DNA of 62,757 bases. Origin: Acidobacteriota bacterium (GTDB lineage: Bacteria > Acidobacteriota > Terriglobia > Terriglobales > Acidobacteriaceae). The stretch covers positions 1 to 62,757 of the forward strand of contig QHZY01000001.1 in assembly GCA_003224855.1 (NCBI GenBank). The letters are read 5' to 3'. Position numbers and translations under genes: made by a program. The notes beneath the pieces are model-generated. The model saw nothing but the letters and a program-made list of their open reading frames with translations. It made no database searches and had not been told where the DNA came from. Within the stretch, counting starts at the first letter, position 1. Each line of letters begins with the position of its first letter. Of this stretch, positions 24,053 to 25,912 are shown in pieces.

Positions 24053-24607
24053 CTATCGAGACATGACGGGGCGGTTCAGATAGTGGTTGGGTTCGGATTC
24101 GGTGGGCTCGACGCCTTGCGGCAGCAGGCCGCCGTTGTAGGCGGCTATGCGGTTCTTCCATTTCAGGAAATCGGTGATGGTCTGCGGTTCGATTCGGACC
24201 TCCACCCGGCGCAGGCTGGCGAGCAGCATGTTCATCTCGTGGCGCAACCCCGCTGCGGTTCGCAGCCTGCGATCGGAGGGATGCACGAGCTGAACTTTTT
24301 TGCCCCAGATCTCGAGCAATCCCCATCCGGCAGTGAGCTCCGAGACAGAGATCATTCCGCGAGGAGTGAAATAGAAACGTTCACAGCCAAGTGCGGATTG
24401 CGGTTTTCTGCGGAATGGTTTTTCGCGATCAATCAGAAAATCTGAACGAGAGACTTTGCATTCCACCAGCACGGAGTGGCAGGAACCCTTCCATCCGATG
24501 GCGTCGGGGACTTCTCCACTGACGCAAGCCTGCTCGGAAAGCACCACCCCGCAGCGGTAACTTCTCAGCCATGCGACCGCACGTTCAACCATTTGCCGGT
24601 GTTCCAT
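24053..24607 (-). CDS. MmcB-like / restriction-endonuclease-fold DNA-associated protein
   Basis: The 184-residue product starts at MEHRQMVERAVAWLRSYR. SGEVPDAIGWKG and HSVLVECKVSRSDFLIDREKPFRR (about 41-66) carry the Asp and Glu-x-Lys of a PD-(D/E)xK nuclease core. GWGLLEIWGKKVQLVHPS follows. I recognise this as a common small bacterial family related to MmcB-type or VRR-like nucleases. The frame continues upstream without a stop into the decayed CHAD-HD gene, giving one 619-codon frame, but homologous proteins in my memory begin at this Met. No strong SD is visible, so expression may depend on readthrough from upstream. Confidence 0.65.
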   Translation of the reverse strand: MEHRQMVERAVAWLRSYRCGVVLSEQACVSGEVPDAIGWKGSCHSVLVECKVSRSDFLIDREKPFRRKPQSALGCERFYFTPRGMISVSELTAGWGLLEIWGKKVQLVHPSDRRLRTAAGLRHEMNMLLASLRRVEVRIEPQTITDFLKWKNRIAAYNGGLLPQGVEPTESEPNHYLNRPVMSR

Positions 24608-24663
24608 ACCGCTCAGGTGTAAATGATCTTTGAGCCGGGAGGAAAGTAACTTGGCAGCTACTA

Positions 24664-25912
24664 CTACGAAGCGCGCCGCAGTGGCGGCTTTCGCAGCGGC
24701 TGAATGTAGACCGGATTCCGGCAGGCAAGTTCCAGAACATGGCGAGCGCGCGATACCTGCATGGCAATGGCGTGAGCAGGAAGATAGCCATCGGGTTTGC
24801 CATTCGCGCGCGCTCCAGCCCAGCGGCGGCCGGGTTTTACGTACTAAGCGATACGCGGTCTTGTGGGGGTTCTGCTTTGCACCCGCATCCGACACCTGAT
24901 GGAGGATGGCGGCGGTGAAGAGTATCCTGCGCTCTTTAAGAGCAGCCGGCTTCCATGCTGTAGCGTTGACCAGGCCGTCATAGAGCTGAAGGGCCAACTG
25001 CGCTACGTGGCGGGAATGGCGAATATTACCATCGCGAAATGCCGCCCACAGTCGCAGTCGATGAATACCGGCAGCTTCGGCGTCTTTGCCTTTAGGTAAC
25101 GCTTCGCGCCAGACCCGCCAAAGTGAGGCAGGCCCGGAAGTACTGGCGACGTACTCTGATATCCGGCTCTGTTTTTCTTTTTCAACGATCTGCTGCCAGC
25201 GGGCTTCGTCCGCCTGGTCTGCAAACGCGCCACTCTCAAGCAGAGCCGCCTGGAGCACATCAAGGTCATGCACTTCGCCCAGAATGTCCTGGGCATGTTT
25301 CAGGCCTTCCTTCCAGTGCCGGTGATGTTCCGGGAGAAAGTTCTCGACTACATAGCGAAGGCGTTTGATCCCAATGCGCAGGCTATGCAGAGCGTGCGGT
25401 GTGGGGCTGCGCATCGCCTTGCGATGGAGCGCATAGGCTTCGGTCCAACGCTCGAGCGCAAGATGCTGATAAACGATGCTGCCCGGTTTGAGGCGAGCGG
25501 CGCGTGCGGAAAGGTGAGCGATCCAGCGCCTCCATTGCTTGCGGTCGAACTGGGCGAGCGCCTGGGCAGCGTCAGCTTTTGCGCTTTCCTCGCGCTGGGA
25601 TAAAAACTGGAGCAGCCGCGCCCGTGCCAGGTCATCCGGGGGAGCAAGCTTCTCTGCCCATTCCTGCATCACTTGCAGGTCGCGCAGGGCGCCCAGGCTG
25701 GCGAACAGCTGCTTCCCGGCCCGCTTCATTTCTTGCCATGCAGGATCGGGATCGATGGCCATGACGCCGTCGGCCATGGAGCGGCAGCGCCGCAGTGCCA
25801 CGCGCAGATCGTGCACAGGATCGACCGCGAGATCGCGGGCGGCGGCGGCGCACTCGCGCAAGACGCGCTGCATCCAGTATTTAAGGCCGACAGATTGCGA
25901 AGCAGGTTTCAT
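24664..25912 (-). pseudogene. CHAD-domain + HD (Ppx C-terminal-like) protein, internally deleted and frameshifted
   Basis: Residues 1-280 of the frame are a good CHAD domain (VHDLRVALRRCRS and LHSLRIGIKRLRYVVENF), which binds polyphosphate. An HD domain of exopolyphosphatase C-terminal type follows (RHSRHVAQLALQLYDGL). Its metal motif LLHD is altered to ILHQVSDAG and HHK to PHK. After PPLGWSARE the family should continue about 85 residues. Instead the sequence jumps to the terminal element in the +1 frame (DGYLPAHAIAMQVSRARHVLE, then PVYIQPLRK), which ends at TAG 24664-24666. The original frame runs on into the next gene. I conclude that an internal deletion with loss of frame occurred. The CHAD part could still be made. 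Confidence 0.65.

Follow-up and report, generated by a model that had tools for sequence, protein, structure and literature searches.

A CHAD gene with an internal deletion and a reading frame that continues into the neighbouring MmcB-like nuclease gene

Results and Discussion

The window (i.e., the whole stretch of DNA analysed, 62,757 nt of an Acidobacteriota bacterium) carries on its reverse strand a CHAD gene, the second domain of which is broken by an internal deletion with frameshift, such that the frame continues into the following nuclease gene. The lesion is absent from the relatives, and both the CHAD sequence and the nuclease gene are intact. This supports the reading given by the first-pass annotation (internal deletion and frameshift with accidental fusion), and a deletion in this lineage, probably recent, together with the frameshift and a chance read-through into the nuclease gene, is very probably the correct explanation.

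Organization of the 619-residue reading frame

The fused frame of 619 residues is present as claimed and occupies positions 24053-25912 (-) as a single open reading frame. Its residues 1-370 correspond to a conserved Terriglobia protein, made up of a CHAD domain and, C-terminal to it, a PPX/GppA domain III-like domain (HD superfamily). In a search of whole genomes of the same GTDB family as the window, homologues of residues 1-372 are found at roughly 41-55% identity, and residues 433-617 are matched in relatives at roughly 60-68% as a separate gene. The named homologues of the CHAD-PPX-III protein are from MAGs of Terriglobia / Acidobacteriota. A contig scan with this intact family as query yielded 440 finds, and no relative was found when the window protein itself served as query.

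The CHAD domain (residues 17-224; 25241..25864, -) is intact, with its conserved columns within the family range and a match to Pfam PF05235 of 103.7 bits (curated cut-off 25.6), covering model positions 10-227 of 228; the same place scores 107.4 bits in the genome profile search. Both in sequence score and in the fold of an intact homologue it resembles known CHAD proteins (PF05235; CtCHAD 6qv7/6qva, RcCHAD 6qv5, PptA 6rn5), whereas the CHAD domain is here followed by a PPX-III-like domain, which is broken in the window. CHAD domains of other organisms bind polyphosphate with a basic pore and basic patches (PMC6537752), and the window gene is predicted to encode a polyphosphate-binding protein.

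Concerning the second domain, the part described earlier as the HD half of the protein is identified as a PPX/GppA domain III-like domain by two matches, one in fold and one in profile. For the modelled intact homologue L031 (pLDDT 91.4), residues 12-285 align with CHAD structures (6qv5, Z 18.7, rmsd 3.9, 253 residues; the model against 6qva, Z 17.9, rmsd 4.0, 270 residues), and residues 286-481 align with the C-terminal part of exopolyphosphatase (8jgt, Z 18.6, rmsd 2.1 A, 162 residues). The profile of the homologues matches the exopolyphosphatase C-terminal domain 8jgo with E=1.8e-24 at profile positions 295-449. The homologues thus share profile and fold with exopolyphosphatase/GppA domain III (PF21447; 8jgo, 1u6z, 3rf0), but in contrast to exopolyphosphatase/GppA the CHAD-PPX-III family lacks the actin-like catalytic domains I-II (e.g., L031, L038, and other loci), and in contrast to exopolyphosphatase domain III the window copy is missing its final two core helices and its hairpin.

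What is left of this domain in frame is its truncated N-terminal part (residues 291-370; 24803..25042, -), recognized by alignment with intact homologues, by the profile match, and by a weak, partial Ppx-GppA_III match at residues 296-358 (16.5 bits against a cut-off of 27.3; profile 16-77 of 177). A complete PPX/GppA domain III (PF21447) at the curated score is not found in the window protein, nor are the H...HD...D metal-site residues of the HD superfamily, since residues 338-339 are HQ and the deletion has taken out the segment containing RYHRG and LRLADAFD. The first-pass annotation was right that HQ replaces HD here, but its use as evidence of decay had to be rejected: an intact HD motif is absent in 30 of the 106 homologues (16 with HE, 6 with HN, others), i.e., the motif is only loosely kept across the family.

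Deletion and frameshift

Intact homologues, mostly about 480-530 residues long, continue in the alignment past PPLGWSARE with a segment of ~72 residues containing ARYHRGALP and LRLANAFD, followed by GYSPRD...AARHLLE...RRPV. The frame of the window departs from the family at E370, directly after PPLGWSARE, and the homologues align on through the site at which the window match ends, in agreement with the earlier claim that the family match stops there. The C-terminal element was likewise correctly placed in the +1 frame: it begins 13 nt past E370 and reads GYLPAHAIAMQVSRARHVLELACRNPVYIQPLRKPPLRRAS*, with GYLPAHAIAMQVSRARHVLELACRNPVYIQPLRK aligning to the corresponding element of the homologues. 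What remains here of the C-terminal helix and strand (24664..24801, -; GKPDGYLPAHAIAMQVSRARHVLELACRNPVYIQPLRKPPLRRAS* in the +1 frame) extends up to the old stop codon TAG at 24666-24664, the first of three (TAG TAG TAG, TAGTAGTAG, 24666-24658) that survive in the old frame and are now out of frame.

In the relatives, the spacer separating E370 from the G of 'GY' has a median length of 72 residues (216 nt; range 70-86), whereas in the window it measures 13 nt. From this spacing a net loss of ~203 nt (67-68 codons, about 68 residues) results at the junction 24802..24803 (-), and the shift is +1 because 203 is of the form 3n+2 (203 mod 3 = 2). The loss of frame stated earlier is thus confirmed, but the ~85 residues given for the loss are somewhat too many. 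Projected onto the L031 model, the deletion corresponds to residues 379-450, comprising most of helix 376-387, helix 406-425, and strands 436-441 and 444-449, such that the last two core helices and a beta hairpin are removed from the PPX-III-like domain. It is very unlikely that the truncated domain would still fold.

The downstream gene and the linker

The second gene within the frame (24053..24607, -) encodes an intact MmcB-like, PD-(D/E)XK nuclease-like protein of 184 aa, as indicated by identity, an invariant motif, start position, Pfam, and fold. Its ATG at 24607 coincides with the start position conserved among the relatives (MTH...), and the protein is 61-69% identical to all but one homologue. 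E25, PD34-35, E49, and K51 (the PD-(D/E)XK motif) are invariant in the 28 MmcB-like sequences. The label MmcB-like, proposed in the first-pass annotation, is only weakly backed by sequence: the window protein matches PF06319 with E = 0.023 and 14.8 bits, below the cut-off of 22, and 27 of the 28 family members match at E<=10 (best 5.1e-5). It is favoured by the predicted fold, which matches SPO1766 (PDB 3dnx) with E = 1.7e-7. The protein therefore shares fold and PD-(D/E)XK core with the MmcB-like putative DNA repair nucleases (PF06319; SPO1766, 3dnx), but, remaining below the Pfam cut-off, it is a distant member at best.

The broken gene and the nuclease gene are bridged by 65 out-of-frame codons without a stop (24608..24802, -). 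In composition-matched shuffles, this stretch of 195 nt is stop-free in the given frame in ~13% of cases, and an open read-through is accordingly unremarkable. The distance from the old stop codon to the nuclease ATG amounts to 56 nt in the window and to about 40-130 nt in most relatives.

Proposed history and alternative explanations

The ancestor would have possessed two neighbouring genes: the first encoded a CHAD and PPX-domain-III protein some 490 residues long, and the second, with its ATG 56 nt past the stop codon of the first, encoded the MmcB-like nuclease. A deletion of ~203 nt, which we infer to have been a single event, would then have taken the last two core helices and the hairpin from the PPX-III-like domain while causing the +1 frameshift; the old stop codon would thereby have come out of frame, and by chance no other stop would have closed the frame ahead of the nuclease gene. 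Expected products, if translation follows the sequence, would be a read-through protein of CHAD, junk, and nuclease, with a probably unstable middle part, and the normal nuclease from its own ATG.

The deletion is probably recent. With columns kept by 90% or more of the relatives counted as conserved, the window differs from the family at 7 of 104 CHAD sites (family median 3, up to 24), at 5 of the 22 sites in what is left of the HD half (median 0, maximum 7), and at two of the seven sites of the tail. The remaining HD part thus exhibits more departures than most relatives, if not the most, and the conservation of CHAD lies within the family range, for which reason the lesion looks recent and the CHAD domain may still work. 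Judged by these columns, strong signs of long decay appear to be absent from the CHAD and HD parts. Direct evidence of relaxed selection is weak. As read from branch length it was rejected, the window branch being of usual length for both CHAD-HD and nuclease, and the ratio of HD to CHAD mean divergence occupies a middling, unremarkable rank (12 of 34).

A possible, if rather doubtful, variant of this history is that CHAD works alone and that this lineage shed the PPX-III-like domain because selection on it was slight. Proteins consisting of a CHAD domain alone are known and bind polyP (PMC6537752), and the variant would agree with the normal conservation of CHAD beside an HD half with more departures than in most relatives, and with the variability of the HD motif across the family. 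In a settled short form, however, one would expect a stop codon soon after the deletion, which is lacking here, and the tail remnant is still recognizable, leaving little time for adaptation.

The comparison with relatives bears on the deletion as the preferred explanation and on the unlikely alternative of an assembly artefact. A deletion of this kind occurs in none of the 106 distinct homologues, and every one that is readable through the site retains the segment lost here; equally short homologues with the same frame, named earlier as grounds for abandoning the deletion, were thus found in 0 of 106. Four homologues align short: L176 runs off its contig, and in L045, L059, and L079 NN gaps lie at the break or close to it. 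Independent lesions in these three lineages were rejected on account of the gaps. According to the artefact explanation, a short stretch was skipped in contig building, and the organism itself carries an intact gene that is not joined to the nuclease gene. The draft genome consists of 274 contigs, the lesion is known from a single MAG, and the NN gaps in the three relatives demonstrate that apparent breaks of this same gene do come from assembly. The window, however, is without any N, the junction included, and the junction is ordinary contiguous sequence.

The NN scaffold gaps at or near the apparent CHAD-HD frame breaks in the other MAGs are situated at 2754 in L045, 1872 in L059, and 1356 in L079. 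Breaks of this type would be misread as pseudogenes.

Concerning the fusion, the MmcB-like gene lies downstream on the same strand in 52 of the 106 homologue loci, and none of these 52 adjacent pairs is fused; the genome search gave open frames of ~700 aa over both genes for several relatives, but a conserved fusion was rejected in view of a stop between the genes each time. The lack of fusions in relatives, together with a linker that is stop-free at chance level, supports the accidental nature of the fusion, as originally proposed. It is highly improbable that a functional fusion, i.e., a CHAD-anchored nuclease at polyphosphate granules, has replaced the two separate proteins. In its favour, no stop interrupts the frame across the two genes, the domains at either end are intact, and relatives often have these genes side by side; against this, fused homologues are absent, the nuclease keeps the position of its own start codon, and the linker is an out-of-frame reading of a recognizable coding remnant, with the chance of being stop-free mentioned above. 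That the read-through protein would be made and used as a CHAD-tethered PD-(D/E)XK nuclease at polyphosphate granules, created by a single deletion, is hardly credible.

The lesion is ordinary gene damage in one genome and not a new kind of protein. It constitutes a clean case of gene decay under way, in which a gene has undergone a deletion and a frameshift and become joined by accident to its neighbour, and automated annotation of the 619-aa frame would yield a false CHAD-nuclease fusion protein. A more useful by-product is the intact Terriglobia family that combines CHAD with an exopolyphosphatase domain III, often beside an MmcB-like nuclease gene; a literature search for the two terms CHAD domain and HD domain together gave a single paper, in which each is mentioned once.

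Genome context

According to the profile search, the same genome possesses a second CHAD gene (C245:34627-35253, 71.5 bits) near a PPX/GppA gene (C245:32969-33436, 97.4 bits), such that loss of the window gene could be tolerated. A third, weaker CHAD is found on C159. The surrounding cluster (L099, G000:C245:28000-40000) reads pstS, ppk, sixA, ppx, CHAD, pstC, pstA, pstB, phoU, with CHAD and PPX/GppA assigned by profile and the other names by eye from the translations. The PPX/GppA-like protein of this cluster (4865-6394 of L099, -) has, by eye, YEVGDY about where the HDVG motif stands, and the HD motif thus appears to be lost in this genome's own exopolyphosphatase-like protein as well.
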